Shown here piece by piece: positions 3,001 through 28,102 of a stretch of 64,000 nucleotides of DNA (positions within the stretch are counted from its first letter, which is position 1; every line of letters begins with the position of its first letter). Source of the stretch: Rhodopirellula sp. P2 (GTDB lineage Bacteria > Planctomycetota > Planctomycetia > Pirellulales > Pirellulaceae); assembly GCF_028768465.1 (NCBI RefSeq), contig NZ_CP118225.1:1-64000 (forward strand), written 5' to 3'. The notes below the pieces were generated by a model, which had not been told where the DNA came from, did not search any database, and worked only from the letters and a program-made list of their open reading frames with translations. The translations under genes and the position numbers were made by a program.

Positions 3001-6000
3001 CCACATTAGTCAGCGTCAGTGCAGAACCTACGGTTTGATCGATAAAGATATCGCCGTCTAATCCGACGCCACCATTGAGCGCAGTCAGGGTGCCCGCATT
3101 GGTACGAACGTTGATTCCCTTGTTCGCAGTGATCGTCACGGTGCTGCTGTTGATCACACCAACGGCACCCCCAGTTTCGGAAATCACTCGACCACCGGAA
3201 CTATCCAGCGTGACGGGGACATTCGTTGCGGGATTGACTTGGTCCACTGTGATATCGTCCACCGCGTTGGCCGCGACGCTGGCTCCAGCGTTAAGCAGTG
3301 TTTTCACTTCGAGCGTACCGCCCGAGTCCAAATCAACGGTGTTGGGTGCCGAACTGGTACCGGTAATCGTGTCAATCACCAGACCGCCACTACCGGTGAG
3401 AATGGTGACATTGCCACCACTGGTTCTGACAGCTTGCAGGTTCGCAGACCCAGTGCCAGTGATGGCTCCATCGCTGGAAGCAGTAATCGAGACCGCGCCT
3501 TGTGCGGTGATATCGGCACCGCTATCGGCGGATACACTGGTCGCGTCGATCGTCACGTTACCACCAGCGTTCGTCGTCAGGACGTTTTTGAGCGTCACGG
3601 TTTCAGCGTCGATATTTACATTGCCGCCGACTGAAAGAGCTCCGTCGATGATGACTTCATCGGCGCCGTTGCTGCCTGAATCGAGATTAATGTCAAGGTT
3701 GCCGAGTAGATCAATGACCCCGGAAAAAGTGAGGGTTTCAGCGCCGCCTGCGCCATTGATTGTCAGCTTGTCGCCAACACCGAGAGCGAAGTTCGTGCTT
3801 TCGAAGCCAGGCGCATTGATATTGTAGTTTCCTGGGGATGTTTGGGTTACCGTCGCATCTGCACCGACATTCAAGTTGAATTCAACGTCATTCGTTGCAT
3901 CGATATCGACTGGCTCGAGTCCCGTGAATGTGATCGTATTGGAACCAATCTGGATGTTGCCTCCGAAATTGTTACCTGTACCGGGATCAGCGTCGAAAGT
4001 CACCGTGACATCTTCACCAGCGGTACTGCCAACGATCAGCTTGTCACCGTTAGCAGTCTCCTGCCCTTGACCGTGGACGGTAATTCCGGCAGCGGGAATC
4101 GCAGTCGGGTCGATGGTGAAAGTGTCATCGCCGTCGCCACCGCTCAGGACGAGCGGTTTGTCCGAGGTAATCAGGGCGGTGTGGACAACGGTACCGTTGA
4201 CTTTGACTTCCAAGTTCGCTCCGTTTTTGACAACCTCAATGGCGTCTGAACCGGAGGTACCCAGGATCATGGTTCCACCACCGAGGAACTGAAGCACCTC
4301 GACGCCTGCAAGCGTGTCTTCGCCATCGCGTGATGAAGTGTTGTCCGTGATGGTTGTGACACCACCGGCAGACGTGATTGTGTAGTCGGTCAGGGCACCT
4401 TGATATACGGCAGTGTCCACTCCCAAACCGCCATCGATGTCATCATTGCCGCCTTTGCCTTCGATCAGGTCATCGCCGGCTCCGGTGTCGATCGTATCGA
4501 CATCGGTGCCTCCGACGATGACATCATTGCCGTCACCGGTAGTGATCGTGTTAATGCCGGTCAACTGCGAGGAAGCGGCCTCGCCTGTAAGGTTGACGGT
4601 AGCGACAGCAGACCCGTTGAACACGTTGTCCGTCAGCGTCCACCCACTGACTGTGACACCTGCATCTCCACCGGTTCCTTGCCCGTCAAATCCGACCAGG
4701 GCATAGTCCAAATCATTCGCCGACGTGCCAAACGTGTTGTACTGGATGATGGGATCTTTGATCGTTCCCTGGATATTCTCTTGGCTGAAGTTGCTGGCAA
4801 CTTCGCCCGGCATGAGGATGCCGACATGAGTCTTGGTGAAGGTGTTGCCGTCGGCTGAAGTCGCCCCGCCAATTGTCAGATTATCGAGGTTCTGGGAGGC
4901 GCGGACGCGGATGCCGAAAACGGCTCCGGAGATTTCGTTGCCGCTGACGGTCGCTCCATCGATAGCTGCTCCGACGGCCGCGATCTGGATTCCGTAGAAT
5001 GCTTCCAATGGAAGGGTTCCGTCTAGATTTCCTGCACCGGGATTGACCATTCCCATGTCGATCTTGTTGTTTTTGATGACGATATCATCACTACCGTTCA
5101 CGTTGATCCCGCGACGAACGAGACCTGTTCCCTTGTTCAGGATGACAGAGTTTTCGACTGTCAGCCCATCGGTATTGCCCGGACTGTCTGCAAAGATTGC
5201 CGTCGTGTTATTAGCGGTGCTGGAGGCGTCGACGGTGATACCGTCGATTGTCACGCTACCAACAGTGATGTTGATCGTTCCTAGAATTAAAGCTTCGTCG
5301 GTGCCACGGACAACGTCGCTCCCATTGCCATGTTTACCCGCGAACGGTCCCTTGATGCTCACCGCTTTGTCGATCGTGAGATTTTGGGTGTAGTCTCCGT
5401 TTGCAACGGTGATCGTGGGAACGGGGTTGGTTAAACTAGGCGTGGCTTCAGCGACTGCGTTACTAAGTGCCGCGTAATGGTCGTAACCCTTCTTGTACCA
5501 AACTCCGTCGGTGTTCTCGAACCATTCGCCGTCCTGCAACGAAGCCGCGTCATCGTCAACCAGAATGTTATCTTTGCCGCTGTTGACGACTTCGTTTTCG
5601 TCGCTGAACGAGAGCGTTCCATCGGTTTGGACGATCGTCAAACCCGTTGGGTCACCTCCGATGGTGATATCGGCATCGCCGAGTGATACCAGATCGCCTG
5701 TTGGCATCGCAGCAAAACCGAAGGAGGCGTCTGTGATTTCGTTTTCTCCGTTGTTAACGAAATTGCTATCACCATCGATCTCCATGTTGTTGATGTCGGT
5801 TTCGCGTCCACCTGCAGGATCATCCGCTAAAATTCCGATAGCGGCCTGACCAGCATTAGAAATATCAACGTTTGTTAGCGTTGCGGAATTCATCGCTCCA
5901 TACAGAACCATTCCTACACCACCCACTAGACTTTCTGTGGGATCCGATGCGTCGCCAAGATCAATCGTAAAGTTGGTGAAGCTAATGTCGTCAACACCAT

Positions 6001-9000
6001 AAACAAGTGCTCCCACTACCGGAGCACCGTCAGCTGGCGTAGCGGCAAAATCACCCATGTCACCGCCGGTGACCGATAGTGAATCGACGTCATAGACTTC
6101 CAAAGCGGCTTGTCCACCCGCACCCGAACCGGTCCAGGTTGTGTCTGTGATGGCGACAGTCGCATCACTTAACGCACTGGTTCCTTTAAACTGAACCGTG
6201 CCAAAATTGTCGGCGAAGGAGGAATTCGACAAAGTTGCGTCTGCACCATCGGCCAGACGCACATGGAACGTAATGCTGTCGCCGCTGTCAGCGGTGAAAT
6301 TCATAACGTCCAAATCATCCATGGAAAGCGTGCCACCAAGCGTCCCTGTTTCGCTAGTGTGGATCGGCTTTAGAGCGGTGATTTGACCATCGAAGGTAAT
6401 CGACTGGAGGGTCAGACCATCCACCTGGTTGCCAACCGGGACTTCAATCTGCCAACCGGAAGCCTGAAGCGTCATGTTCTGCAGCGTGGAACCGCTTGCG
6501 TCGGTTGTTAGGGTGATGTTGCCATTGATTTCCACCCCGGCCTCAGACTCACCAATAATGGTGATATCTTTATTGACACTGAAGCTCTCGGCATAGGTCC
6601 CATTGGCAAGGTTAACGGTGCCACCCGAGTCGACCAGATCGATTGCTTGTTGGATTGAACCACCACTGTTGACGTTGATGGTCGACGCGGTCGCGGTGAC
6701 CGTGGCAGCGGTAAGTTCGCCACCAAGAACCAACGTCGTTGGCGACTCAATACTCAGGGCACCGCTGACAGTTACATCGCTGTCAATATTGACAGTACCA
6801 TTCGCGTTGGTCTTCAGTGTCAAATTCGCATTGTCACTTGCACCGGCAAGCGCGGAGCTCACTGTGATTGAGTTGGCACCGCCTCCCGTGGTCGCACTGG
6901 TGTCGATCGTGACGTTGGTATTGTCCCAAAGGTGAGCCGACTCGATATTGACGTTACCGCCACCAACGCCTGATTCGTCGGTATTGCCGCTGACCTTGAT
7001 CGCAGGGATCGTCCCCGCATCATTGACACCTACTGGTGCTGAGTTAAATCCGGTTTCCAAAGTAAGAGCGTTGGCCCCGTTGGCGGGCGAGGTAACGGTG
7101 ACGTTTTCCATGCCGCTAATGTCAACTGGTTCTAGACCAGTGAAGTGAATCGTGGCCGTCGCCGGACCGCTGCCGACAACGACTTGGCCGTCCCCGAACG
7201 TCGTGCTGCTTGGCGTATACACAGCATCTTGACCGGTCCCCACCACCTTCAACGTATCCGTTCCCTCTCCACTGCCACCCTCATAGTTAATCGTCATCCC
7301 GGCGATATCGGCTGCATGCAGGACCAATAGGTCCGCTTCTTCATTGCGGCCCGTCACCGTGAATCCGGTGACCTTCGATGCAGCATGTGATGCCATTCCC
7401 GGGATCGAATTGCCATCGGCATCTTGGAAAACAATCTGACCCGGGTTGCCGCCGCTGCCGGCAACTTTCAATACCGTGACATGGCCATCCGCAGCAGTGA
7501 AGGCAGCGTCGCCAATGGAAACATTTTCGAATTCGTCGGTGAGGGTCAGTGTGAATGAAGTCGTGTCATCCGGCATGCTACCGACGGAATCATCATCGAC
7601 CGAGATGGTAACGTGGTGGGTTACCTGGGCCTCGTGATCGAGCTCAACACCGGCGGCAACATGCAACTCGGGACCAGAAACGCCATTCACAATCACAAAA
7701 CTAGCGGCATCATCACCAGACAGCGTCAACTGGTTCCCGTTCACCCCCGCTTCCGCATCGTCGGTGATCGTGATATCCGCAACTTTGACCGATGTCGTCG
7801 TCGCAGTGTTCTCGGGCAGAGTGGAACTGGACGGCGTGATACTGATGATAGGAGCATCGTTGACTGGGGTGACATCCACGGTCATCACATAAGCGTCGTC
7901 GCTCAGCGCCGGGCCATTGGTGTCCTGGACCTTGAACTCAAATGAGTCATAGGCGGCACCGTTAGCATCGGCAACGGGAACGAACCGCAATCTACCGACG
8001 TCGATATCGGCGACGGTGATTAACTGATCCTGGGTAACGCCGATCCAGGCTGCCCCATTGTTCCACTGAAGCGCTCCAGCGGTTGGCAGGTCCGTGATTT
8101 GCACCACGCTAAAAGCGTCTCCGGAATCAACATCGGCGAAGTTAAAGTCGGTGGAGCTAAAGACGTAAGTTGTACCTTCATCAGTTGAAACGGTTGTGTT
8201 TGCCGCAGTAGGAGCCGTGTTCTGCGCAAACGCCGTCAGGATGACGGCGTTGCCTTGGTAATCTATTACAAGATCGATAGCGTCGCCGCCGATGGAAGTG
8301 GCGACTTTGTCGCCGCTCGCGAAGTTACTGAAGACGCCCGAAAGTGCACCAGTCGACTGGATGATCGTGAAGGTGTCACCTGCATTCACTTCGCCGCTGA
8401 TGATGTTGCTCACGTCGACGGTCAGCTCGCCCGCCAAGCTCGCAGTTCCCGTAGCACTGACCTGATCGTGTCCGTTCGCGGCACCTGCACCATCGGGGCC
8501 AACGACTTCAATGGTCGTTGTGGAGTTGCTGACAAGGACGTAGGCACCGTCGACGCTTAGAACTCCAGGCGACTGTCCTGGAGACACGTTGCCAATGAGG
8601 GTTGCCGACGGAGCCGTGATATCGGGTCCGGCGATCGCATCGTTGATGGTTCCGCCAGCGATGGTGACCGGATCAAGGAAGGTGACTGAATCGAGATTGA
8701 TAGTACCCGTTCCGCTAGTCGTGTCACCGATCGTGATGCTATTAAAACCGTCCGCGAGATATCCAAGTTCCGAAATATTGAGGCTCAGCGTTCCGGAGCC
8801 ATAGCCGAGACCGATCGAGGTGTCGGCCGTCCGCGGCTTGATCGTCAGATCTCCCGATGATGCGACGCTTGTGCCACCATAGAATGCGATCGTGTCGGCG
8901 TTCAGGGTGATATCACCGGTTGCGTTTGTTCCGCCAATCGTGGCGCCGGAAGAATGGATGTCCGGATAGGAGGTTCCCCGCCCGGTCCCCGTGATAACAA

Positions 9001-12000
9001 TCGACCCAGCGCCGGTCGACTCGGCCGCTCCCCCGCCGAAATGCACACCGTAATTTCCCGTGCCGCTGAGGTCCAGAGTTCCGTCGTTAACTCGAAAGAT
9101 TCCTTGGTTCAGAATCCCTTGATAACTCCAGCTTTCAGTTGCCGTTCCCACGACGGTCAGATTGCCGGAACCGGTACTTTGGACCGTTGCTCCAGGGTCG
9201 TTCCGCACTCCGCGGTTGTACGCACCACCACTTCCAATCAGTTCAATGAATCCATCTTCAGTTGAAACTGTCCCTCTCAACCTGACTCCCTCGCGACCAG
9301 AATCGGTAATAGAAGACCCATTGATCGAGATGCCACCTGAGATGCTATTAGTGACAGACGCGCCGGAATAAATCTCGACTCCAATATTGCCGCTTCCCGT
9401 AAGCGAGATTGCTCCGCCCTGTGACTCAATGCCACCATAAACTATAATTCCGTGGCCAACAGCCATGGCAGACGGATTCCCGAGCAGCGTGATATCACCA
9501 GTCTCCGTCGATACGGTTCCGCCTGTCGGGACGTAAATTTGCCGATTGGCGGTAATACTCACAGCTCCGGACCCTGCTGCCACAATATCACTAAAGACGA
9601 CGACATCGTACGACCGAGCAACGAGCGCGATGTCTTTATCCGTCTGGTTAGTTAACTCTTCGTTCACATAAAAGTAGCCGCCTACGAGCGTAACGTCGTC
9701 CTTGAACGCGGAATCACTGATGCGGACGTAGCCAGTTCCGTTAACAGCATCACCGATCGTGATGTCGCTAAAACCAGCCGCGAGATTTGTGAGTTCATTG
9801 TCATCGAGGTTTAGAGTTCCGCTGTCGCCGCCAAGGCCGATCGACGAACCTGCCTGTGATGGAACAATCGCCAGCGAGCCTGTGCCGGAGATCGTGCCAC
9901 CTAACTCAACTTCCGCCGCTGTTATCGAAACGTCGCCACCCGAAGCGGCAATGGCACCACCAGTCGTTCCCGGCCATTCATATACGCGCACGTGCCCCGC
10001 ATCGGGTTTATCTCCGTTATATCCGTCATTGTAGATCGCCCCAATAGCCACCCGGCTGCCGTCCGCACTTAGGGAGACCGACCGACCGCTCCGGTCGCCT
10101 GCCGCCTCGCCGTCGATGTCCGCACCGACTTGGTCCCAAGTTCCTTCGGTGATATTCCATTCATAGATTCGTACGTGCCCTGCGTTGTTGCCGCTCCCGT
10201 CGTTGAGAAAAGCCCCAATAGCCGCCCGGCTGCCGTCAGCACTTAGGGAGACTGAATAACCGCTCTCGCCATTTGCTGCTTCGCCGTCGATGTCCTCACC
10301 GAGCTGCTCCCAAGTACCATCCGTGATATTCCATTCATAGATTCGTACGTGCCCTGCGAGGTTGCTGCTCCCATCGTTGCCGTTCGCCCCGATAGCTACC
10401 CGGCTGCCGTCAGAACTCAGGGAGACCGACCGACCGCTCTGGTCGCCTGCTGCTTCGCCGTCAATGTCCGCACCGAGCTGCTTCCAAGTACCATCGGTAG
10501 TACCAACGGCGACATTCCATTCATAGATCCGTACGTGCCCTGCGGAGCTGCCGCTCTCATCGTTGAACAAAGCCCCAATAGCTGCCCGGCTGCCGTCAGC
10601 GCTTAGGGAGACCGAATAACCGCTCTGGTCGCCTGCTGCTTCGCCGTCAATGTCCGCACCGAGCTGCTTCCAAATACCATCGGTAGTATCAACGGTGATA
10701 TCCCATTCATAGATCCGTACGTGTCCAACGGTGCTGCTGTTGTCCCCACCGTTGCGGTGCGCCCCAATAGCTACCCGGCTGCCGTCGGCACTTAGGGAGA
10801 CCGAATGACCGCTGGAGTCGCCTGCCGCTTCGCCCTCGATGTCCTCACCGAGCTGGTCCCAAGTACCATCGGTGATATTCCATTCATAAATCCGTACGTG
10901 CCCTGCGGATTCGCCGTTTCCATCGTTATAGACCGCTCCAATCGCTACCCGGCTACCGTCCGCACTTAGGGAGACCGAATAGCCGCTCTGGTCGTAAACT
11001 GCTTCGCCGTCGATGTCCGCACCAAGCTGGTCCCAAGTACCTTCGATGATATTCCATTCATAGAGCCGCACGTGCCCAAAGAAGTTGCGATTTTCGATAG
11101 CCCCAATAGCCATCCGGTTGCCGTCAGCACTTAAGGAGACCGAATGACCGCTCTGATCGTATGCCCCTTCGCCATCAATGTCCTCACCTAGCTGGGCCCA
11201 TCTCGGACTCGACATGTCCAACGTCCCGCCATTGATACCATCATTATCCGCATTGACGGTGAAATCGCCGCCGCCGGTATCGACGAATGCATCGATCGTC
11301 ACATTGTCGTTGGCGGTGATGCTAATGGGACCGCCTAGCGTGCTCACCGCTCCGGAAATCGTGACAGCGTCATCCGCCCCTGCACCCCCATCGACATCCA
11401 GGCCTTGCCCCGCCCCCAGCGATAGAGTCCCGATGGTGATCGAATCGTCGCCATCGCCACCCTTGATCACCAGATCTCCCGAACCAAATGCACTCAACGG
11501 CACGGTCGCCTGATTCGTTCCGTCACCAGTGCCACCAAAAATGCCACCGCCAGTGAAATTCAGCGTGTTATCACCGATGGATGAATCGACAATCGTCAGG
11601 TTCGTCCCGTCTGAACTGAACAGCAACGTATCCGCATTAGCGCTGCCGGTAATCTCCAGATTGCCACTGGTGATCCCAATATCCGCCGCCAGCAACTGGC
11701 GTTGCTCGAGGGTTTCGGGGCTGAGTCGGTTGCGGGTGGTGCTTTGACGGCGGGTGCTTTTTGTGTCTCGCTTCCCGAAGCTAATGCCCCAGGGCAGCAT
11801 CACGGTATATGGGACGCTCGGGCGTTTTTCCAAACGCACGTAGAACGGTGGGTTGGTGATGAAGTTCCAAATCGCGATCAGGCCCAGACCAAACTTGGTG
11901 ATCCAGCTGCCTCGGAATGCGTTTTGGTATCGCTCAATTCGGGCGGCTTGCTTGGCGACCCAATGTGCTTTGCGTTCGTTGGCTTTTTGTTCCCAGCGAT

Positions 12001-12085
12001 TGAAGCGTTCCCGCATCTTCTGCATGCGTGTGGCGGAGGTGTTTTGGCTGTTGTTGGAGAACTGATGGCTCGGGCGAATCGACAT
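1..12085 (-). CDS. Giant secreted repeat protein, 3' end outside window (giant protein A)
   Basis: Open frame from an ATG at 12085 to the left edge with no stop: at least 4028 codons, C-terminus missing. Residues 1-60 are charged and helical (MQKMRERFNRWE), 61-82 form a hydrophobic segment (FGLGLIAIWNFITNPPF), and 121-134 carry LSPETLEQRQLLAA, a planctomycete LEPR-XLL-like export motif. Then follow a seven-repeat FG-GAP-like propeller (about 294-705), haemagglutinin-like beta-solenoid stretches rich in GDITL/ADGDV, cadherin-like modules with VNDAP linkers (about 1287-1520), right-handed beta-helix parts (about 1815-2500), RTX-like calcium repeats (GDGNDVIVGG, GAGDDLIEGKGGNDD; about 2508-2562), and more solenoid. 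I infer an exported adhesin or matrix protein. The N-terminal 135 residues and the upstream region match giant protein B at 14802-27575. The ligand is unknown. Confidence 0.9.
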   Translation of the reverse strand, partial: MSIRPSHQFSNNSQNTSATRMQKMRERFNRWEQKANERKAHWVAKQAARIERYQNAFRGSWITKFGLGLIAIWNFITNPPFYVRLEKRPSVPYTVMLPWGISFGKRDTKSTRRQSTTRNRLSPETLEQRQLLAADIGITSGNLEITGSANADTLLFSSDGTNLTIVDSSIGDNTLNFTGGGIFGGTGDGTNQATVPLSAFGSGDLVIKGGDGDDSITIGTLSLGAGQGLDVDGGAGADDAVTISGAVSTLGGPISITANDNVTIDAFVDTGGGDFTVNADNDGINGGTLDMSSPRWAQLGEDIDGEGAYDQSGHSVSLSADGNRMAIGAIENRNFFGHVRLYEWNIIEGTWDQLGADIDGEAVYDQSGYSVSLSADGSRVAIGAVYNDGNGESAGHVRIYEWNITDGTWDQLGEDIEGEAAGDSSGHSVSLSADGSRVAIGAHRNGGDNSSTVGHVRIYEWDITVDTTDGIWKQLGADIDGEAAGDQSGYSVSLSADGSRAAIGALFNDESGSSAGHVRIYEWNVAVGTTDGTWKQLGADIDGEAAGDQSGRSVSLSSDGSRVAIGANGNDGSSNLAGHVRIYEWNITDGTWEQLGEDIDGEAANGESGYSVSLSADGSRAAIGAFLNDGSGNNAGHVRIYEWNITEGTWDQVGADIDGEAAGDRSGRSVSLSADGSRVAIGAIYNDGYNGDKPDAGHVRVYEWPGTTGGAIAASGGDVSITAAEVELGGTISGTGSLAIVPSQAGSSIGLGGDSGTLNLDDNELTNLAAGFSDITIGDAVNGTGYVRISDSAFKDDVTLVGGYFYVNEELTNQTDKDIALVARSYDVVVFSDIVAAGSGAVSITANRQIYVPTGGTVSTETGDITLLGNPSAMAVGHGIIVYGGIESQGGAISLTGSGNIGVEIYSGASVTNSISGGISINGSSITDSGREGVRLRGTVSTEDGFIELIGSGGAYNRGVRNDPGATVQSTGSGNLTVVGTATESWSYQGILNQGIFRVNDGTLDLSGTGNYGVHFGGGAAESTGAGSIVITGTGRGTSYPDIHSSGATIGGTNATGDITLNADTIAFYGGTSVASSGDLTIKPRTADTSIGLGYGSGTLSLNISELGYLADGFNSITIGDTTSGTGTINLDSVTFLDPVTIAGGTINDAIAGPDITAPSATLIGNVSPGQSPGVLSVDGAYVLVSNSTTTIEVVGPDGAGAANGHDQVSATGTASLAGELTVDVSNIISGEVNAGDTFTIIQSTGALSGVFSNFASGDKVATSIGGDAIDLVIDYQGNAVILTAFAQNTAPTAANTTVSTDEGTTYVFSSTDFNFADVDSGDAFSVVQITDLPTAGALQWNNGAAWIGVTQDQLITVADIDVGRLRFVPVADANGAAYDSFEFKVQDTNGPALSDDAYVMTVDVTPVNDAPIISITPSSSTLPENTATTTSVKVADITITDDAEAGVNGNQLTLSGDDAASFVIVNGVSGPELHVAAGVELDHEAQVTHHVTISVDDDSVGSMPDDTTSFTLTLTDEFENVSIGDAAFTAADGHVTVLKVAGSGGNPGQIVFQDADGNSIPGMASHAASKVTGFTVTGRNEEADLLVLHAADIAGMTINYEGGSGEGTDTLKVVGTGQDAVYTPSSTTFGDGQVVVGSGPATATIHFTGLEPVDISGMENVTVTSPANGANALTLETGFNSAPVGVNDAGTIPAIKVSGNTDESGVGGGNVNIESAHLWDNTNVTIDTSATTGGGANSITVSSALAGASDNANLTLKTNANGTVNIDSDVTVSGALSIESPTTLVLGGELTAATVTATASTINVNSGGSIQQAIDLVDSGGTVNLANGTYAESFSVNKDITIIGESEAGVEINGNITLTTDASGSTLQNMTLQASGWQIEVPVGNQVDGLTLQSITFDGQITALKPIHTSETGTLGGTLSMDDLDVMNFTADSGDSITFHVRLADGADATLSNSSFADNFGTVQFKGTSALSDATVAITDTTWTGSGAGGQAALEVYDVDSLSVTGGDMGDFAATPADGAPVVGALVYGVDDISFTNFTIDLGDASDPTESLVGGVGMVLYGAMNSATLTNVDISNAGQAAIGILADDPAGGRETDINNMEIDGDSNFVNNGENEITDASFGFAAMPTGDLVSLGDADITIGGDPTGLTIVQTDGTLSFSDENEVVNSGKDNILVDDDAASLQDGEWFENTDGVWYKKGYDHYAALSNAVAEATPSLTNPVPTITVANGDYTQNLTIDKAVSIKGPFAGKHGNGSDVVRGTDEALILGTINITVGSVTIDGITVDASSTANNTTAIFADSPGNTDGLTVENSVILNKGTGLVRRGINVNGSDDIVIKNNKIDMGMVNPGAGNLDGTLPLEAFYGIQIAAVGAAIDGATVSGNEISGAVFGIRVRASQNLDNLTIGGATSADGNTFTKTHVGILMPGEVASNFSQENIQGTIKDPIIQYNTFGTSANDLDYALVGFDGQGTGGDAGVTVSGWTLTDNVFNGSAVATVNLTGEAASSQLTGINTITTGDGNDVIVGGTDVDTIDTGAGDDLIEGKGGNDDIDGGLGVDTAVYQGALTDYTITSAGGVTTITDNTSSRDGEDTLAGVEVLQFLGGGTMILGTSGSDAIEVVKNGANLEVKVNGTVVHTALITSDKPLVLSGGDGDDTFTIDPTAIPAAGITVHGQGQETANGDKLIVGSTAGEDVTVTFDADPGTGNNFGGNIQIGSNTITFTGLEPVDIDATNDVEFNLNVGADATVTQTSPGNYNINAPGFESTNFALGVGDKLTINGAGGAETLTFSGVIDLLGNLDINLDSGSNGADEVIIDGALSVGGNVNIDAETVTLKNVLTTNAGGNVTIDATSVSADSGADITAQGAVSITASSDGAITGTGSANLQAVRTSGGNVTILTGSGGLVIDTITGTSSAPNTVDLDSGGTLEVKTLLNAGASVAANAVDDITVDQVNPATNVPVTLDSSGGRVISETGGAVGVINSSTVTITANKGINVRTNAGTLTALNGGVGLDGDIFIDQTVGSALTLTNVVNQSAGDKVTVQSVGDVTVSSLVRATGGDIKLSAVNATINGAVTSITGAGEIEVFAKSGVTVSGGGSVTADTGTIFIDADIDVATDAFALGQFINSGSVTTGNGSNQAVVVTARDMNLTGTITSLLGRTTLRNSAANQQIILGPNGSGTSVSLSTNELSTVSAESLEIGRTDSNATGAIDIAGSVAPAFTDTLILRTAASISDSGAGSIEETNLRLVAGAGILLDGNNHDVTNLVASSSTGSILFIDKNALIIPSAAAANTIFNTTGPDTIVNGVETTAKNVTITSSDLTIESPMVTSGTGPLVGQVLLIQDTLDIDTTTGSINAAAADVTIRPRTAGTAISLGSNAIQVPGELSMDDAELDRIATTSVLRIGQLDPADLTKAINTGDINIRGPITEADSGYTTLSLVTGGEVTDQTAGETPADIKVTNLAIQASQGIGSAGDLQVTVTNLAVANNLTNTAVAGNININNLGDLSITMTPIDGISGVVNTFATGTITINADAGNSQDGDLTVNAGVTSNNGAITLQADKNIDFSEAGDVNSVGGNIVVTADAALASNLGAITMVEGTDINAGLGTVSLTADGDVTLGLVQSTSATIPAISITSTSGAVLDASETSTNADLIAVSGRVLIVAETGVGTAGNPIETTIGSLDVTTASGPIHIAEANSLSIIKVDQNGTATDDDVIILAGGIITVEAPGSGGSGITAEGGDIVLTATGSNNDIVVNNVITAADAGTITLTAAENIASAAEIKSADGNIVLVATGGNATFTGNGDITSTGIGDISVTASDAGAVITQTDGSLFQASSGTISLTADGNISLSGLKTTHVNNTALTLLTSPAITITTTAGNIVDNGDTVFAGNPTGGLDIAAPNGRLVMTATAGSIGAGNPLEINVFSINAIAGVGDLQVVDTGDIYIDRLTATTGNINVESTGGSINDLQDDTAADLSAPAAGKTITLKAVDEIGGMPFTTGGNTRLELAAGSTVIASTSGADANILLHGLGDVT
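9970..11205 (-). repeat. Seven tandem FG-GAP-like repeats coding a probable seven-bladed propeller
   Basis: Seven units of about 168-192 bp lie inside giant protein A. Each codes W-x-QLG-x-DIDGEA, then SG-x-SVSLSADGSR-x-AIGA, then AGHVRIYEWN. I counted seven copies of each of the three blocks; the SVSLSADG blocks lie near 11130, 10959, 10788, 10598, 10418, 10238 and 10067. Spacing varies because loops differ (two units carry an extra VDTTDG or VGTTDG). Seven is the blade number of integrin-alpha-type propellers. Near-identical DNA between units suggests recent duplication or gene conversion. Confidence 0.85.
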
Positions 12086-12307
12086 AATGAACTCAGCTGA
12101 AAAAAAGCGTCAAATGAATGGTGAAGGCGACCCGGTGGGCCCGCGGTGTGAATCAAAGAAGCGTGAAAAAGGGTCGCGTCGAAGTTTCTGAAAAGCAATG
12201 CCCGCAGAGGCGAGCGTCAGTGCTTGGAAGAGTCTGCATTCGGGCGAGTGGCACAAAGGGGCTACCACCGATCGTTGACGGATGGAGGCCGTAACGGGTG
12301 CGATCGA

Positions 12308-12332
12308 CCGAATTCCTGGCGAATCCGGCGAC
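12308..12332 (-). repeat. Degenerate REP in the leader of giant gene A
   Basis: On the minus strand this reads GTCG then CCGGATTC-GCCAG-GAATTCGG. That is the main REP hairpin of this window with GTCG in place of GTAG. It lies 223 bp upstream of the ATG at 12085, inside the predicted 5' leader. It has no inverted partner. Confidence 0.65.
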
Positions 12333-12687
12333 GGGAGACGAGGGGGCGGCATGAAGGTGCGAGAAGCCGACGATGGTAAAAACCAGGGCGATCGCCACTC
12401 ACGAATAGCGGGACGAAAGATGGCCTGAATCGCGCAGTCGTCATCCCCAGGAAAGAACCAGGCTGAGATCGCGAAGGCTGTTGAATCCGGCTGAAGCGAG
12501 CCCTCGCCCGAACCGCACCGGTTGTTCCTGGACATCCAATCATATTTTCTACATTGGGTGGGTCTTTGAAACGCATCGCAGAAGCTCCACTTCCGATTCG
12601 TCAGGTGACGAATGTCCAGCGATCCGAGGGCTCTGCACGCCCACACCCTCCCACAAAGAGGGGGTGCCCTCGCGAGCGTGAAGGAAG

Positions 12688-12716
12688 ATCCTAACTGGGG
12701 GTTCTGGGGCGAGCAA
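12688..12716 (-). promoter_or_regulatory. Conserved promoter-like element upstream of giant gene A
   Basis: On the minus strand: TTGCTC (12711-12716), a 17-bp spacer ending in GAACCCCCAGT, and TAGGAT (12688-12693), as in a sigma-70-type promoter. The same arrangement, with an almost identical spacer, lies at 28074-28102 before giant gene B. A start near 12681 would give a leader of about 600 nt containing a G/C-rich hairpin (12644-12666) and the degenerate REP at 12308. A second conserved block at 12871-12906 lies 178 bp farther upstream. Promoter function is inferred from position and conservation. Confidence 0.55.
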
Positions 12717-12730
12717 GCATTCGATTCGTC

Positions 12731-13912
12731 AAAATCGGATGAATCCTGAGGCGTCCCAAAAAAGTTTGTTGCAGTGGATCCAACTGGCAGTCGCGAAGCA
12801 TTCGTAAAACTGCGTTCGCCCCGTTTTTTGCGATCATTTTGACTCGACTGCAAAATATATTTCCATTTCGCTTGAGTACTTTTGGCGAGCTGGACTGTGC
12901 GGACGGTCGCGTGCCACCCGACCAACTGCCCCAAGGGTGGCTTGACGTCGCAGATCGGCAATGGGGGGGCACACAACGAACACATTCGAGAACAACCACA
13001 CCTCCCGCAGGGGGCGTACTATGAGAGGGGTATTCCGCGGCTGATGCCAATGGCCATGCATCGTGATGGAGGGAGCGACACGGGGGTTCACACCGGCGAG
13101 ACCCGCCAAGCGGAGGGGGCAATTGTGCTTGGCAGACTGAAAGAATTGCCCGGGCTGCCGAGCAAAAGCAACATGAAGAGACCGATTGCACTCGTTCTGT
13201 AACGTGCATCTTGCTTGGTGGGCGAGCAGCGTATTGATTCTGCATCGCCCTGTGGTTGCAATGAGCAACCGCGGTCACGCGCCGAGCGAAACCTGGGACG
13301 CGAGATTTTGATTTTGCAGGCGAGGGCAATCGACCTGGAGACATCCCAAGAGGACACAACCTCTCAGACTGCGCAGAATCGTGAAAAACCTCCCTCGGCG
13401 AGCACGGCTGCGAACCTTGGTTTCCGGGCGTCAACCAACTTGCACGTGATCTTCCCGAGGCCGCATGTCATGGCTGCACTCATGTATCGTTTTGGGCCCC
13501 TCGCAAACCCTCGGGCGATGCTTTGAAACGGGCTTGAAAAAGCCTCACAGACTTTCCTCAGATCAATCCCGACCGACGCGAAGCAAACGCCGGCAATCGG
13601 CACCAATTCGATAAACGAGCGTCAGGTATTTGACCCCACACGCGGTTGGCAAATGGTCGCAACAATATCAATAGCTCAGCATCCGGCAAAATGCATCTTG
13701 TTGCCACATCGTGATTGCTGGAGCCCTTCCGCATCGGACTAACAATGGCCCAGCTCAGATCGATTCGAAGGTGAGGCGAGAGGGACGATCTTACTCAACT
13801 GATTCCAAGACGAAATCGCAAATGGAACCACATTCCATCACGCCTCAAGACGCTTCCGCCCGCCGATTCGGCGGAAGAGCCGAAAACTGTGATTCCTATC
13901 GAATGAGAACCA
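12731..13912. other. Non-coding stretch between the PEP-CTERM gene and the giant gene A promoter
   Basis: About 1.2 kb without a convincing gene. Frames are open on both strands but give arginine/proline/serine-rich translations with no domain, signal or family resemblance. The part nearest the promoter (12835-12906) aligns with 28211-28290 upstream of giant gene B. Beyond that I see nothing recognisable. Confidence 0.5.
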
Positions 13913-14587: not shown

Positions 14588-14801
14588 ATCCAAATTTCTC
14601 TCACTCGAAATTTCATTTCAATCGGTTAAGACGACAAACGGAGGGGGACAAGGCTTACCTTGCCCCACATCAATTCGCCCACACAACTCACTCATATCAT
14701 AATTCAACAGAAGAAGATGCAGCATCAAATCTGCATCTCCCAGGCAGGAAGTTCATCGACGATCGAGAACTTCCTGCAAAAGTGCATTCCGCGCCAGCTG
14801 C

Positions 14802-17800
14802 TTAGAACAGCATTCCATCAACGAGAAGATCGTCATCGTCGACCTCCGCGAATACGGAGTCAACAACACTTGCGCTGCTAGACGGCATCATCACCGGAAC
14901 CATTGGAGTCGGCGGGGTGAACAACAGAAGTGAATCTCCGGGCAGAGAGCCGGTTTTGTTGAAGAAGACCCCGAACAAATCCCCGTTATCAATGACACCA
15001 TCTCGGTTGATGTCAAAGTTGTTTTCAACCCCAACGGCCGCGGGGCCTTTTTCTAAAAAGACACTGTTCAAGTCACCGTTGTCGACCACTGTGTTTCCAG
15101 GCACATTCTCTGTTTCGCCAACCTGGTTACCCCAGTAGTGAACATCCGGAGCCAGCAGACCTGTGCTGGCGTTTGCTTTCACCGTGACTTGCAACCACTG
15201 GTTCTTGATCGCTTCGTCCGCCCAGATCAATTCAATTCGATCGGAGCCGCCGGAACCCTCCCCTGCTCGCACCTCAATGGTCGGTTGCTGGCCAGCGTCG
15301 AGCAGAGTCCAAGAGGTTGGATCTGCCGTGTTGCCAACGCGAAACTCGAAATCAGATGCTGTCAGGCTTGTCGCTGGCAGGTTCGCAATATCAACCATCA
15401 CACCATTGATACCACGCAGGTAGTTGGTGTAGTTCGCCGCGGTTGCGGATGCACCGGGCAGCAAGGCGACTTTGTCGGTTGCGATGGCGGCATCGTCATT
15501 GGCCCCGTCGCTCGCGGACCCGATTGGAGTCCCGTCGAATACCGATCGATTGTAGAACACGTGACGGCCTGCAACCGATGCCGGCACTGCTGTCACGTTG
15601 ACGGTGAACGTCTTGACATCCGACGCACCGTCGTCGTCAGTGACCGTCACGGAGACCGTTTTGGCTCCCACAGTGGCAAACGTGTGGCTGATCGCAAACG
15701 TTTTGGAAACGCCGGTGTAGTTGACGGCGGGCGACCCGTCGCCAAAGTCAACGACGGCATCCCAGGTGTCTGCACCCGGGTCATTGAAGGTGACATTTCG
15801 GGAGAAGAGATCCCCCGCTTGCACCAATCCGTCGATCGGCTGAACGATCGTCGGATCGACGTTGTTAACGACGTACGGGATCGTGTACGAATTCTGCCCC
15901 AACTCGTCGTCCTTCACAACGACCTTGATTTCTTTGTTGATGGCCAGGAACGCCGGCAAGTTGTCAGCCAAGAAACTGTCGGGAATCGAGACCGTCGACG
16001 AAGTGGAGTCTTCGATCTCGAAAAGACCATCGTTATTGAAGTCATAGCTGTACCTCAAATTTGCCGCGTCAGGGCCAGACGGATCGAAGATGTTGGTCAA
16101 ATTCACCTGCCCTCCTGTGTCGCCTTCGTTGAATGGTCCGTTCGCTGAAACACTCGCCGTCGGTGCGACGTTGTTCACAGTGATCGGCATTGTTCCCGCA
16201 GACTGGAAGACCGCCGCGTTGCCTTGCGACTCGAGAGCCACCCGGATCGGATTAGTGACCCATGCGTCATCCTCATAGAGATGGTCCACCGTGATCGACC
16301 CACTGCCATTGAGTGCTACGATCTCAGCCGCTGTCAACTCATATTCGGAGGCAGCCGGGAAATCACCAAAGTAGACCGTTCCACCCGTGATTGGATCGGC
16401 GACCAAACCGGCGGGATCAGTGAGCCCACTCAGTGTCAGCGTGTAGGCAACGGTGCTGCTTTCATCATGCGTTGCCGCACCGGCTAGCGTGATGGTCGGT
16501 CCGGCGTCGGTGCCTTCCAAATCGAAGCTGGCGGTTGATGAGTTACCTGCGACACCGACATTGCCTGTGGCTCCAGCGTCGCTGGCAGTCACGGTAACCG
16601 TCAACGTCTCCGTCAAGGCCGCTCCTGGATCCACATCATTGATATTGATTTGGACCAGGGCAAGGTTTGCTTGAACGTCTCCCATTTCACCGCTGAAGGT
16701 GGCGATCTTGTTCGATCCTGACAGCACAATCGTGCCGCCCGACGGTCCAGCCAATTGCTCAAACTCAACCCCACCTGCTGGAAGCGTGACCACAACGGTC
16801 AGGGTACCTGGTGAGACGCCATCATTGATATCGATGTCATCAACGCTAACCAAGGTCTCCAGACCAACCGAACTGGCTTCATCGACGGCAACTCCCGTCA
16901 GCGGAACGGTGATTTCTGGTGGGTCGTTGACCGGCAAGACGTTGAAGGATGCCGTGACGGGGCCCTCCAGGGTTCCGCCTTGGACCGAGAATTCAATCTC
17001 GACTGGCCCAGACTCATCGTCGTCTGGCGTGAAAGTCCACGGGCCAGTCCCCGATAGCGATCCAGCTCCTGAGATCAAACTGACCGAAGTGACGCTCAAG
17101 GCGTCGTCGGGATCACTGGAATTCGCCAAGAGCTGAGCGGCGGTGATTGTCACGGCTTCATCTTCATCTGAATCTCCCAGTGTCACGTCGGCTGCCAAGG
17201 TTGGGAAGTCGAATTCGTCAACAGTGATGTCGAACTCGATGTCACTGGTATCCGCTCCCCCCGCGTTGTCGACGGCGGTCACCGTGACAGTCGTTGTACC
17301 AGACATGCTGCCATCCGGTGTGAATGTCAACTTGCCGCTGGAGTCAATCGCGGGTCCGGCGGTGAACAGGGAAGGATCGTCTGCAACGACCGTGAAGGTC
17401 GTGATCGATTGCCCCGATTCGTTGGCAGGCCCCGGTTCGACCGTCAAGAATGCGGCTGCCTCATATGCCCCCACGTTTTGCAGGACGGTGACGTCGTTCA
17501 GTGTGGCGGGGGTGAAAACCGGAGGATCGTTGACGGCAGTCACGTTGAGCACAACGGCCTGAGGCACACTGTCCGCCGTCCCGTCGTTGACCTTGTAAAC
17601 AAACCCATCGGTTCCGTTGAAGTTGGCAGCCGGCGTGTAGTCAAAGCTACCAGTCGCCGGATTCAAAGTGAAACTCAATGCGTTGGCTGGGGCAGAAACC
17701 ACGACATATTCCAACGTGTCGTTGGAGTCGGTGTCCGTGGCGGTGATCCCGACATCACCCACAATCGCCGTGTCTTCCAAAGTGGTTCGGGCACCTCCTG

Positions 17801-20800
17801 CTGACGTTGTCGGTGCGTCGTTCACTCCGGTGACCTCAATCGTCGCTTGCGCTGACGACGTGTTGCCCGCGGCGTCCTTCATCGTGTAATTGACAACGAC
17901 CGTCGCTGCCTCACCCAAGGCAAGCTGCTGATAGTCCGAGGATGGCGTGAACTTCAACTGGTTGCTGTCGATGCTCGCGCTACCACTATTTGTGATTGAG
18001 ACACCGGTCGGAGTAGACACCGAGTCAATCGCCACCGAATCGAGCACAAAGTTCGTTGGCGAATCATCGCCATCGACATCGGTGTCATTGGCGAGCACGT
18101 CGACCAGTACCGATGGTGCGTCTTCAGTCAAGGAAGCCCCTGTATCGTTCATGGCAGTGGGGTCATCGGCGAGTCCCGTGACTGTGATCGTCAGCGTGCC
18201 TGTCGCCGTCCCCGGTGTCGGTGAAAAACCGTCGGAAACGGTATACGAAACCGTGACGGTCGCCGAATCACCGGCATCCAATTCGGCGAATGCAGTTCCA
18301 GGATCAAACGTGACCTCATTTCCAGAGACACTGACAGTGCCTGCAACGGCAGGGCTTCCGCTCAATCCCGCTGTCGCAGTGATCGACGCACTCTGCAGCG
18401 TAAGCGTCGGCGAGTCAACGTCGGTGTCGTTCGCAACAACATCGACCGTGAGCTGCGTGTCTTGATCCGTCGTTCCCGAATCAGCAACTGCTACGGGAGC
18501 GTCATTCGTCGCCGCGATGTTGATCAAGACAGTGACCGGCGCTGAAAGTGCACCGCTGTTGTCTTTCACCCGATAGACAAAGCTGTCTTGTCCGTTCTGG
18601 TTTGCAAACGGAGTGTAGTTGAATGCACCGTTGGCAGCCATGATGATCGAACCCTTCGTGGGTTGAGTCACCAGCGGCAGATTGACGGAAAGATCGTTCT
18701 TGGAACCGTACTTGTCGTCAACATCTGTGTCATTCTGCAGGACTCCCGTCGCTGCTGGCACCACCAAGGTGGTTTCCTCTGACGTGGCATAAGTTTCCGC
18801 AACACCAACCGGCGCGTCGTTGACACCGTTGACCGTGACGGTCAATGTCGCCGTGTCCTGCAACGCACCAAGATTGGCCGTGTATTCAATCTCGACCGTC
18901 GCCGACTCACCCGCATCCAACGTATCAAAACTGGTGCCCGGTGTGAAAACCACCTCATTGCCGACGACATTGACAGTTCCATTGCCAAGCGTGACGCCAC
19001 TTGGTCCGCTGACCGAAACCACGGTTGGATCAGAAACAGTCAGACTCGAGGTCAGATCATCGTCGTCGACCACTTCGTCGTTGGCCAACACATCCACCGT
19101 CAACGCATCGTTTTCATCGGTTGTGTAAGAAGAATCGTCGTCATTGGCGATCGGTCCGTCATCCGCTCCATTGATGGTGATGACCAAAGTCGAACTGCTT
19201 TGAGCACCTGCCGTGTCTTCCATCGTATAAGGAATCGTGACTTCAACGGAATCACCAGGGTCGAGCGAGTCGAATTCGGTGCCTGGTTCAAACTTAATTG
19301 AATCTCCATCGATGCTGATCGTCGAATCGCTGAGATCAAAGCCACCTGTCGAAGTTGCGACACCCAGCGGCGAAACGAGCGTAAAGTTGATGGCGGAATC
19401 CGAGTCATCCGCGTCAGTGTCGTTCGCCAAGACCGCGACCGTCGTGTCTTCATTCTCATCGATCGTTTTGGTGTCAGCAACGGCGGTTGGCGTATCGTTG
19501 GTGCCGTTGACAGTGATGACCAACTCGCCTGAATCGGAAAGACCTTCGTCATCTGTCATCGTGTAAGGAACGGTGACCGTTGCTGTGTCGCCTGCGTCCA
19601 GGCTGTCAAACGCCGTGCCTGGATTGAATGCAATTTGATTGCCAACAATGTTAAATGACGCACCACCCAAGCTTGGTACGCCCGAGACGGTGACGGTACC
19701 CAGCGAATCGAGGATGAAGTTGGCAGGGACATCGCTTGGAGCATCCGGGTCGGTGTCATTGGCAAGCACATCAAACGACTTGGTTTCGTTCTCGCCTGCG
19801 ACTCCGGTGTCGTCCGTGACGACAGGTGGATCGTTGATGTCAACGATGTCGATTGTGATGGTGTGGACCGCCGAGGTCGCCGCCCCATCCGAAACTTCGT
19901 ATTCGACCACGATTCCTGTCGTGATCGAAGGAGACGGTGGAGCGACAAACGTCCAGACGGAACTGCCACTCGGTGCTGTGAGTGTTCCGGTACTCGGACC
20001 GCTGACCAAGGTGTAAATCAACCCTGAATCAGGTGTTTCGACATCGTCAACAAAGGGAGCCAAATCAAACACAAAGGTTTGCCCTTCGCCAACGGCAAAC
20101 GCGATGTCACTCGCCGTCGGGGTGTCGTTGACTGGGTTCACTGTTACCAGGAACGAATCCTCGACAAAATCTCCGGCAGTATCCGTCGCACGCACCGTAA
20201 TTGTTGCGGTTCCATTTTGGTCGGGCTGATAGTCCAGAATCAGATCCGTTCCAGAAACGGAAATTGCGGCCGTTACAAGTGAACCATCAGAGCTGCTTGC
20301 GGTGTAAGTCAAGCTGTCACTGTTCGTTAGAATGTCAACATCGTCGAACACATTCGAGAGATCAACTGTTGAATCCGCTGCGTCCTCATTGACAACAACA
20401 TCCGCGAGCCCAGCCACAACGGTCGGTTCATCGTTCTCGGCCGCAACTTCAACTTCAAAGGTGTCCTCAACAAACAATCCAGCAGCATCCGTTGCACGCA
20501 CCGTGATTGTCGCAGTTCCGTTTTGCTCGGGCTGATAATCGAGAATCAGATCCGTTCCAGAGACGGAGATCGCTGTGGTTACGAGCGAACCATCCGAACT
20601 GCTCGCCGTGTAGGTCAAACTGTCGTTGTTTGTCAGGATGTCAACATCTCCAAACACGCCCGAAAGATCGAGTGTTGTGGATGCGGCATCCTCTAGAACG
20701 CTGACGTCGGATAGTTGGTTCGCAACAGTCGGAGCGTCGTTCAACTCTGCAACCACAACCTCAAACGTGTCTTCAACAAACAATCCGGTAGAATCTGTTG

Positions 20801-23800
20801 CACGAACCGTGATGGTCGCCGTTCCGTTTTGCTCGGGCTGGTAGTCCAGCACCAAGTCGGTGCCTGCCCCAGAAATGGTTGCCGCTACCAGCGAACCATC
20901 GGAACTGCTCGTCGTGTAAGTCAGGCTGTCACCATTTGTAAGAATGTCAACATCGTCGAACACGGTCGACAGGTCGATTGTAGTATCGACTGCATCTTCA
21001 TTGACACTGACGTCGCCGATCGGGTTCTCCACGGTCGGAGTGTCATTCTCCGGATTCACCGTGACACTGACGGTGGCCTCGTTGGAATCAAGGTTCGGTG
21101 AGCCGTTGTCACGAATCGTGTAGGTGAACTCGAAACTTCCGTTGAAATTCGCTGCCGGAGTAAAGTCGAAAGTCTTCCCTGATGGATTGATTGCTAGATT
21201 TCCAAACACGCCGGATGGATAACCGGGAACTAGCGAGAAGGAGACAATGGTCAGATCCTGAGCCGATTCGTTGGGCTGGCCCGCATCATCGGCTCCGTTC
21301 GGTGTCACGTTGCCAATCACGTCGAGAGAGAATGGCGAATCGTCTTCTTCCAGGACAAATGTGTCGTTGGTCGCAACCGGGGCGTCATTGACCGGACTAA
21401 TCGTGATCGTAAAGGTCTCGGTCGCCGAAGTGTCATCACCACCGTCCGAGACGCCGCCGCTGTCCTTGACATTGACCTCAATGATCGCCGAACCGAACGC
21501 GTGTGCGGCAGGCTCAAATGTCAACGTTCCGTCTGGAGCGATCGCGGGCGATGTCGAGAACAGGGCTGCGTTGTCGTTGCTGAGGATCTCATAGGTGAAG
21601 GTTTGAGTCTCGTTGGCTGCGCCTGATGTCGGAGTCGCAAATCCAGGGACAGATTGAGCCGTCGAGTTTTCAAGAACGGAAACCACGGACGAGACCGTCA
21701 GCGTTGGCTCATCATTGACCGGCTTGACTTCGAATGTGTAGGAATCGACCGCGTTGTCGACGCCGGGAGTTCCGCCGGTGTCGGTCGCCGTGATCGTCAG
21801 CGTGGTGCTACCGAAAGCGTCGTCTGCCAATTCATAGGACAGCTCACCATTGGCATTGATGGTCGGCTGAACATCAAAGAGAGTAGGATCGCTCGCGACC
21901 ACTGCAAAGCTAACCGTCTGACCGGACTCGTTTGTTGCACCAGCGGAGATACCGGCCAAGAATGGCACATCAACCGCATCTGCGGAATCCTCCAGCACAG
22001 CAGAGGCCGTGGGAACGGTAAATTCCGGTGCATCATTCACCGCAGTCACTGTGATCGACACGACCGCACTACTGGTTGAGTCCCCGTCAGAGACAAAGTA
22101 GGTGAATGAATCGGAGCCGACGAAGTCCTCTACCGGGACGTAGGTGAACGCTCCGTTGCTAGCGACACTGAATGACAAAGCGTGTGCTGGGGCAACGCTG
22201 CCGACAATGACAGGTGTGTCATCTGGATCGGTGTCACTCGGAGCATCCGTGATCACATTCCCGGTCAATGTCCCCTCTTCCGCAACGCTGTAAGCATTGG
22301 GGTTGGCGACCACAGGGTCATTCACGCCGGTGATGGTGATTTCAAGCTCCGCGGTCGAGCTTTCCCCGCCACCGTCATTCATGGTGTAAGGAATCGTCAC
22401 GGTGACCGATTCACCGGTGTCGAGATGGTCAAACAATCCGGATGGATCGAATGTGACATCGCCATTGGCTGTGAAATTGAAGGCGGACCCGGGAATCGTT
22501 GTTGAATCAGACGCGGTCGCAGCACCTAGGCCAGACAGAACAAAATCTGCAACATCATCGTCAGGGTCGGCGTTGGGGGCATCGTCATCATTGGCGAGCA
22601 CATTCTTCGTAACGGAGGTGTCTTCATCGGTCGTGGTCGAGTCGTCCGTGGCTGTTGGGCCATCATTCACTCCGGTAACCGTGACCTCCAAAGTGGAACT
22701 GGATGTCGCACCATCGTCATCCTGCATGGTGTATGGAATTGTCACGGTGACCGATTCACCCGTGTCTAAGTCCTCAAACAAACCTGCTGCGTTGAATGTG
22801 ATAACGCCGGCTGAAGTACTGGTGATCGCCGCCCCCGGAATCACCCTTGCATCGGACGCCGTGGCAGAACCGACTGAAGCAAGCGAGAACTCTCCCGCAC
22901 TGTATAAATCATCGAGATCTGTATCATTGGCAAGCACATCCTTCGAGACCGAAGAATCTTCGTCGACCGTTGCGGTGTCCGCCGCCGGCGTTGGGGAATC
23001 GTTGATCTCATCGACCTCAACCCCACGTGTTTGTGCAAGGCTAGCGACATCACCGTCACTCACCGAGAAGCTGATCGTTCGAGTGTTCTCGGTAGGCTTT
23101 TCGGAAGTGTTCTCAAATTTCACAGCCCGCAAGATGGCTTGGTACTGGGCAACCGACGCTGCACCTGTGATGGTCAACGTATCACCCGAGAAGCTACTGG
23201 TCACGCCCGCTGGCAACCCCGTCACGCTCAATACGTCGCCAGCCTCGAAATTGGTGGTGATTTGAACGGTCGCACTTTCCAGCTGCGCGTCATCAATGTC
23301 GGTGGCGACAATCGTATTGGTAATCTGAGTCGCGGCATCACCTTCAGCAAAGCTGAACGTCGACCCCTCGATGGCTGACAATACTGGCGCATCATTTACT
23401 GGAAGCACATCGACAAACACCGTCCCTGCAATGGTTGCAGGTGAACTGGCATCCTTCACCGTGTAGGTGAACTTAACGTTGCCATCAAAGTTGGCTGGCG
23501 GCAACGGGGTGTACTTCACCGTCTGATCAACGTTGATCCCCAATTGACCTTGGAAGGCACCCGTTCCTCCCACTGATGGTGTTAGCGAGTAGGTCACTCC
23601 GTCTAAGTCAGCACCACCGTTGAGCGAGATATTGACTCCACCAGCGGTGTCTTCATTCACGACCCAACCCGCGGATTGAATCACCGTTCCGGCGGTGGCC
23701 GATTCAATTGCCGCATCCATCGAAGCGAAGGCTTGGTAACCAACGATCAAGCCCGGAACAGGCGTGCCTGCAACCGGCGTGAAGGTAACGGTGTCACCGA

Positions 23801-27575: not shown

Positions 27576-28073
27576 GGATATTCTCTAGAAATGAAAGTCA
27601 GATGTATTCGGGGATAGTGCCTGAAGCGTTGGGCAAACGGCAGGCTTTGATCAGCGGTCGACGAGAATTCAAAACTCGTCAGTGGCCACGGGGCGAAAGG
27701 TGGCGAACAGGGCCCCTCACGGGGGATTTACCGTCAGGTCACGCTCACTCGCGTTCCATCGCGAGGCGGATGCGGCGGGCGAAACACTTGCCAGCGAGAC
27801 TGGCAGATTCGCCCCTGCGAGAGCATTGAAAAAGGAGGCAGCGACGGATCGAAATCGCATGTTCCCGCCCCGTAGGTCGCCTCACGACGTCCCTCCAGAA
27901 AAGCGGTTTTATCGATGCACTCAACCATTGCGTCTTCTCACTCGAGGAAGATAGCGACCGCCCAAAAAGCGGCTTCAAATGACTCAGCCCGACCGGAACA
28001 CCCCCCATGCTTGCCAGCACCAAGACCGATCCAAAACCCCTTGATGGGGGGAACCGTTCGAGCATAGCGAAAG

Positions 28074-28102
28074 ATCCTAACTGGGGGTTCTAGGGGAAAC
28101 AA
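28074..28102 (-). promoter_or_regulatory. Conserved promoter-like element upstream of giant gene B
   Basis: On the minus strand: TTGTTT (28097-28102), a 17-bp spacer ending GAACCCCCAGT, then TAGGAT (28074-28079). It is the counterpart of 12688-12716. The predicted start near 28067 gives a leader of about 490 nt (27576-28066). A short hairpin, CCCC-ATCAA-GGGG followed by TTTT on the minus strand (28033-28049), sits soon after the start. The second shared upstream block is at 28258-28290, 179 bp from the -10, against 178 bp in gene A. Confidence 0.55.

Follow-up and report, generated by a model that had tools for sequence, protein, structure and literature searches.

A conserved promoter-like region upstream of giant genes in Rhodopirellula

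Two giant genes, A and B, lie in tandem on the minus strand at the start of the genome of Rhodopirellula sp. P2, and similar promoter-like elements are found in the DNA upstream of both. This raises the question of whether the two upstream regions are forms of one conserved regulatory region, and what such a region would control. The window analysed here is the first 64 kb of the single-contig genome (7,291,416 bases). An initial annotation of this DNA had named a TTG box, a 17-bp spacer, a TAGGAT box and a block farther upstream, and all of these elements were found in place at both loci. The coordinates of the features are collected in Table 1.

Table 1. Features associated with giants A and B in the 64-kb window
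Feature	Positions	Strand	Remarks
Giant gene A	2..12085	minus	ATG at 12085; 4028 codons in the window; continues past the left edge
Predicted leader, giant A	12086..12687	minus	602 nt; without a detectable small-ORF homologue (profile search)
Candidate promoter core, giant A	12686..12720	minus	ATGCTTG-N20-TAGGATCT; present in 8/8 giant loci
Core boxes, giant A	TTG 12714-12716, TAGGAT 12688-12693	minus	
Distal site, giant A	12873..12879	minus	GTACTCA; 159 bp upstream of the core
Giant gene B	14802..27575	minus	ATG at 27575; 4257 aa; cadherin-like/Ig-like/PKD repeats
Predicted leader, giant B	27576..28073	minus	498 nt; 72% identical over 242 nt to the R. baltica (G003) leader
Small ORF, giant B leader	27734..27928	minus	64 codons + stop, ending ...CQSRWQVFRPPHPPRDGTRVSVT
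Candidate promoter core, giant B	28072..28106	minus	ATGCTTG-N20-TAGGATCT; same basis as the giant A core
Core boxes, giant B	TTG 28100-28102, TAGGAT 28074-28079	minus	
Distal site, giant B	28260..28266	minus	GTACTCA; 160 bp upstream of the core

The giant genes and their upstream core

The N-termini of the two giant proteins are 69% identical. Giant B is a giant ORF with repeated extracellular-type domains (Big_9, Cadherin_4/5 and PKD_4). In giant A, FG-GAP_2 reaches 66.9 bits in total against a cut-off of 23, a sum in which no single stretch passes alone. The proteins of this family are probably surface-exposed. They resemble known planctomycete giant genes and the Planc_extracel motif (PF07595) in their cadherin/Ig/PKD repeats and in a weak PF07595 match of giant B, the N-terminus of which (the LSPETLEQRQLLA stretch) scores 20.5 bits (E 3.7e-4) and thus remains below the gathering score of 25.5. 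They differ in the shared promoter-like region, which is not described in the accessible portions of PMC2754498 and PMC5177795. Between giants B and A, likewise on the minus strand, there is an ORF of 226 aa (13913-14593) with weak matches to PEP-CTERM (E 0.014) and Ig-like (E 0.019) sequences, both below the curated cut-offs; it possibly encodes a small exported protein.

The core upstream of giant A consists of TTGCTC, the 17-bp spacer GCCCCAGAACCCCCAGT and TAGGAT. With up to three mismatches allowed, the 17-mer GAACCCCCAGTTAGGAT was found twice in the window, against a mean of 0.07 in shuffled sequences. In the 7.29-Mb genome it has two copies, both of them at giants A and B. Local alignment of the two upstream regions (BLASTN) yielded 59 bp that include the core, with 48/59 identical positions (81%, E 3e-11). 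The shared promoter-like region upstream of giants A and B is real, and the original observation is confirmed.

For comparison we used 13 Rhodopirellula genomes, and 241 genomes of the family Pirellulaceae were searched for the exact core. A DNA search of 40 genomes (P2 and 39 relatives) gave seven places in five genomes, P2 included, all of which are Rhodopirellula. Searching with the giant N-terminus gave eight places in 6 of the 13 Rhodopirellula genomes and added G001, which the DNA search had missed. The eight giant loci are A and B of P2, two in R. europaea 6C (G006), and those of G001, R. baltica (G003), G004 and G009. All eight have the pattern ATGCTTG-N20-TAGGATC, with the start codon following at a distance of 464-602 nt. 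Seven of them have the same spacer, AACCCCCAGT; in G001 it has drifted, and the ATGCTTG and TAGGATC ends and their 20-bp separation are unchanged. The base before AACCCCC in the core (12704 and 28090) is G in both P2 copies and in G009, and A in both R. europaea 6C copies, in G003 and in G004, the drifted spacer of G001 standing apart. Gene conversion or co-adaptation between paralogous promoters is a possible source of this pattern.

We also considered that the motif might occur at random positions, which was not borne out: the exact core has eight matches in the 241 family genomes, and every one of them lies upstream of a member of the giant-gene family (a reversed control gave three matches). 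Within the reach of such genome comparisons, this shows a conserved core that is exclusively linked with the Rhodopirellula giant-gene family. When one mismatch was allowed, nine matches were found in the 13 Rhodopirellula genomes, namely the eight giant loci and one place in G007 (G007:C2:197232-197267). In the latter, with the sequence TTGACG-N17-TAGGAT, 131 nt separate the end of the match from the downstream start codon of a gene that we take to be pilin-like (DUF1559-type). A search of 149 family genomes with the giant N-terminus identified eight giants in seven genomes of other genera (35-45% identity). At these eight loci the core was absent with up to three mismatches allowed in its 14 fixed bases, and four places were found with four mismatches.

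Distal site, descent and promoter reading

The distal site is located upstream of the core at a near-constant distance (Table 1). The fixed spacing proposed in the initial annotation holds in this form, the 178 and 179 bp given there having been measured to another point. GTAC(T/C)CA is found 159-160 bp upstream of ATGCTTG in seven of the eight loci; its counterpart in G001 is ATACCCA at 180 bp, with a 12-base context, TACCCAGCAAAA, common to G001 and G004. The helical repeat of DNA is 10.5 bp, and the extra 20-21 bp in G001 would correspond to about two helical turns. The site is only 7 bp long, and when only A and B are compared, the distal block does no better than chance (local score of 25, shuffle maximum of 27). 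Aligned without gaps, the stretch between the distal site and the core is identical between A and B at 63/140 positions, where 300 mononucleotide shuffles reached at most 52. It is thus only through the fixed spacing in other species and this gapless A/B identity up to the core that the distal site becomes convincing. For 13 chosen pairs of loci (G001 left out), the same stretch was above the shuffles in nine, in one case by a single base; the four pairs that were not above the shuffles all include the A-type copy of G006. In addition, a T-rich block like AACTTTTT is present 46-47 bp before the core in six of the eight loci.

The region had been described as duplicated, a description that stands for an old shared descent and falls for a recent copy, since BLASTN at E 1 aligns nothing between the leaders of A and B in P2. 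R. europaea 6C likewise has two tandem members of the giant family, and its A-type copy has N-terminal residues in common with giant A that are absent from the B-type copies. The A/B pair is therefore probably older than these species. One could argue that the tandem paralogues passively inherited their upstream DNA and that the core is non-functional, as the N-termini mark A and B as paralogues and the stretch from the distal site to the core still aligns between them. However, the leaders that adjoin the core do not match, and the core ends are invariant in six genomes, G001 retaining both despite its drifted spacer. This explanation is already disfavoured by the sequence comparison, and we find it scarcely credible. 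Conservation of the core and its upstream DNA next to leaders without a match indicates that selection has preserved the core and that no recent copying is involved. As comparative genomics, the case that this is a real, selected regulatory region is solid.

All eight loci contain TTGnnn-N17-TAGGAT, which has the layout of a sigma-70 promoter in that a TTG and a TA...T hexamer are 16-18 bp apart. A fit to -35 and -10 boxes is suggested by the ends of the core, which are invariant while the middle drifts. The initial interpretation as a regulator site followed by a promoter and a long leader is well supported by the comparison of species. It was not supported by a generic sigma-70 scan (at least 9/12 matches to TTGACA/TATAAT), which did not report the core in the A or B regions. 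The one 9/12 match considered as a nearer promoter for giant A (12113-12084) overlaps the start codon and was rejected. To place the spacing in the context of the P2 genome, TTG...TANNNT spacers were surveyed across 1.2 Mb of its sequence (438 upstream regions). The combination was commonest at spacers of 16 (13/2024), 17 (15/2017) and 18 bp (15/2005), and lower at 14 (6/2033), 15 (11/2027), 19 (10/2001) and 20 bp (5/1997). This peak at 16-18 bp, which rests on small counts, lends modest support to the promoter reading. At a spacer of 17 bp in the P2 upstream regions, the six -10 hexamers listed do not include TAGGAT, and TANNAT is not enriched.

From this arrangement we infer promoter activity, the type of sigma factor and the presence of an activator. 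The housekeeping (RpoD-type) sigma factor with RNA polymerase would recognise TTGnnn-N17-TAGGAT. Because the -35/-10 pair is weak by consensus, we propose an activator at the distal site: a putative protein that binds GTAC(T/C)CA some 160 bp upstream, on a fixed helix face, would activate the promoter or loop to it. The gap between a -10 box and the start of transcription is usually 7 nt, and a start about 7 nt after TAGGAT would give a leader of about 460-600 nt, from which most members would first translate a small ORF (58-64 codons, ...WQVFRPP(H/L)P...). We regard this combination of a housekeeping-type promoter and a distal activator, producing a long leader mRNA with a small ORF translated first, as quite probable.

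Like sigma-70 (RpoD-type) promoters with a distal activator, the region has a TTG, a 17-bp spacer, a TA..AT hexamer and a near-constant upstream site. Unlike them, it has a core that matches TTGACA/TATAAT poorly, a strongly conserved spacer and a 5' ATGC, and the exact core occurs in one gene family of one genus among the 241 family genomes. Such features could mean that the core mainly binds a dedicated regulator or an alternative (e.g. ECF-type) sigma factor and is not a housekeeping promoter, given that a spacer identical in seven of eight loci and an invariant ATGC before the TTG exceed the needs of a sigma-70 promoter, and that the exact core is confined to a single gene family. We consider this unlikely: in G001 the spacer has drifted with TTG and TAGGAT retained, a spacing of 17 bp agrees with the weak TTG/TANNNT preference seen in the P2 genome, and the near-match in G007 keeps both boxes and the 17-bp spacing in front of the pilin-like gene. 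The housekeeping-type promoter thus remains our preferred reading.

Predicted leaders and a conserved small ORF

Leaders of about 600 and 490 nt had been expected for A and B, and the lengths predicted here from the -10 box to the ATG (Table 1) agree well with this. The longest leaders are those of giant A (602 nt) and G001 (593 nt), both without the small ORF, and the others measure 464-502 nt. Compared with each other, these two longest leaders have only a 13-base match (E 0.52). Within the predicted giant A leader there is one terminator-like match (12215-12200); three such matches were found in the region, against 1.7 expected.

If transcription began further upstream, the conserved region might act as RNA instead of serving as a promoter, forming a structured leader or attenuator. 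A hairpin of C-rich and G-rich strands can indeed be drawn by eye soon after the core in seven of the eight leaders. However, the consensus stem from seven sequences (G001 left out) has only four pairs (-6.57 kcal/mol), Rfam has no match at the gathering score (mir-1292, E 0.75, reaches 22.3 bits against 90), and no terminator-like site was reported at the hairpin in A or B. An RNA-level role of this kind is very improbable, and we continue to treat the leaders as transcribed from a promoter at the core.

The conserved ORF in the leaders is a new observation; it is present in the leader of giant B and not in that of giant A. An ORF of 58-64 codons with WQVFRPP(H/L)P and a short tail at its end was found in six of the eight leaders. 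Counted from the -10 box, its ATG falls at leader position 144-148 in all six copies, in the start context TGAGA(A/T)GAC-N3-ATG, and the ORF ends 143-175 nt before the giant gene. WQVFRPP(H/L)P is present in every copy, and over its nine codons the variable columns number 0, 1 and 8 at codon positions 1, 2 and 3. Comparison of the copies thus shows a conserved spacing and a coding signature, and the ORF counts as a small conserved uORF with a conserved C-terminal block. Run against the eight leaders alone, a profile made from the five B-type copies recovers the A-type copy of G006 (E 8e-9); it did not detect the ORF in the leaders of giant A and G001. In giant A, FRP can be seen by eye in one frame, a candidate that was rejected as the profile did not support it. 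No further copy was found in the 13 Rhodopirellula genomes (150 candidates scored per genome, next best E 0.02), and DNA coding for WQVFRPP occurs once in 60 family genomes (two of them Rhodopirellula), at giant B. The two of the six copies that were scanned have no Pfam or NCBIfam match. Among the matches listed in the open-licence PMC literature, there was nothing relevant on mapped start sites or leader ORFs in Rhodopirellula.

We further infer that the small ORF is co-transcribed with the giant gene and exerts control over it, in that it probably would modulate translation of the giant gene or transcription read-through into it. Alternatively, the ORF might be a small-protein gene in its own right, driven by the same promoter as the giant gene but without control over it. 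Small proteins are common in operons, and the ORF has its own conserved start context, GAGA(A/T)GAC-N3-ATG, as well as variation in third positions. Its restriction to giant leaders in the scored candidates of the 13 Rhodopirellula genomes speaks against this, as does its position after the promoter, which is fixed while the middle part of the ORF varies. We give the independent gene slightly less than an even chance. With regard to a modulating uORF, the gap between the small ORF and the giant gene is richer in C than in G in all six cases (C 0.28-0.34, G 0.20-0.23), a composition that would permit Rho loading without being evidence of it.

The arrangement has some likeness to the RAPP-like arrest-peptide uORFs (SecM, ApcA, ApdA/ApdP, CruR and, in Planctomycetota, uA_LPPP). 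The planctomycete LPPP class and a list of RAPP-type motifs are given in the accessible part of PMC10987492, and for CruR the corresponding part of PMC9426467 describes that relief of uORF translation arrest triggers Rho-dependent termination. Common to these systems and the ORF described here are the small uORF, in our case 143-175 nt before the main gene, its variable middle and a conserved block rich in proline close to the C-terminus. The differences are that the block reads FRPP(H/L)P and not RAPP, RGPP or RAGP, that a strongly hydrophobic segment is lacking, and that the ORF precedes a giant surface-type gene and not sec/yidC or a copper-regulated operon. None of the RAPP/RGPP/RAGP-type motifs was found in the small ORF, which has FRPPHP or FRPPLP instead, and judged by hydropathy (best mean over 15 residues, 0.25-1.03), none of the six copies shows a secretion signal or TM segment at its N-terminus. 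Because it lacks both a RAPP-type motif and a strongly hydrophobic segment, the small ORF was not assigned to the RAPP-like arrest peptides. That it represents a new class of nascent-peptide leader, in which a ribosome pause at FRPP(H/L)P gates the entry of RNA polymerase or ribosomes into a 12-25 kb gene in combination with a helically phased distal activator, is distinctly unlikely. If it were true, pausing there would protect the cell under stress from the cost of making giant proteins.

The RB11769 locus of R. baltica

In R. baltica (G003) one copy of the giant gene was found, and the match starts at 6,335,006. This equals the start printed for RB11769 ("probable aggregation factor core protein MAFp3", 24,522 bp) in the accessible part of PMC1274298, and RB11769 is therefore a member of the giant family. 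It has the same promoter core and small ORF as giant B of P2, and differs in that a single copy was found in R. baltica. In the accessible portions of PMC2754498, Table 2 gathers the genes that heat, cold and high salinity repress, RB11766 (129 aa, plus strand) among them, and RB11766 is suggested as a possible regulator of RB11769, the giant gene next to it. Neither of the shared-stress tables (Tables 1 and 2), as they appear there, contains RB11769.

Over both strands of the 3-kb R. baltica locus, only one 129-codon ORF was found (6,334,355-6,334,744), and this ORF overlaps the core at 6,334,509-6,334,543. Identified by its length, strand and place only, it is probably RB11766; its computed pI is 9.55, compared with a printed value of 10.4 for RB11766. 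The frame is interrupted by stops in five of the seven other loci (G004, which also has no start codon, both copies of R. europaea 6C, G006_1 and G006_2, G009, and giant B of P2), and RB11766 is thus probably not a protein. At the giant A locus the aligned part of the frame is open (37% over 90 residues), and G001 matches too weakly to judge. An ORF of 291 aa upstream of giant A (12110-12985), which overlaps the core and has no Pfam match, was treated as a chance ORF, although the R. baltica 129-codon ORF aligns, with no stops, to part of this upstream region.

RB11766 is probably a mis-annotated gene, the span of which corresponds to the promoter and leader of RB11769. The array signal of RB11766 probably reports the giant-gene leader, provided that the oligo lies downstream of the start site; it could also lie upstream of it. 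The promoter, the fixed distal site and the leader ORF offer concrete handles for testing giant-gene control in R. baltica, and the stress-repressed array feature RB11766 becomes a probable read-out of the transcription of the giant-gene leader.
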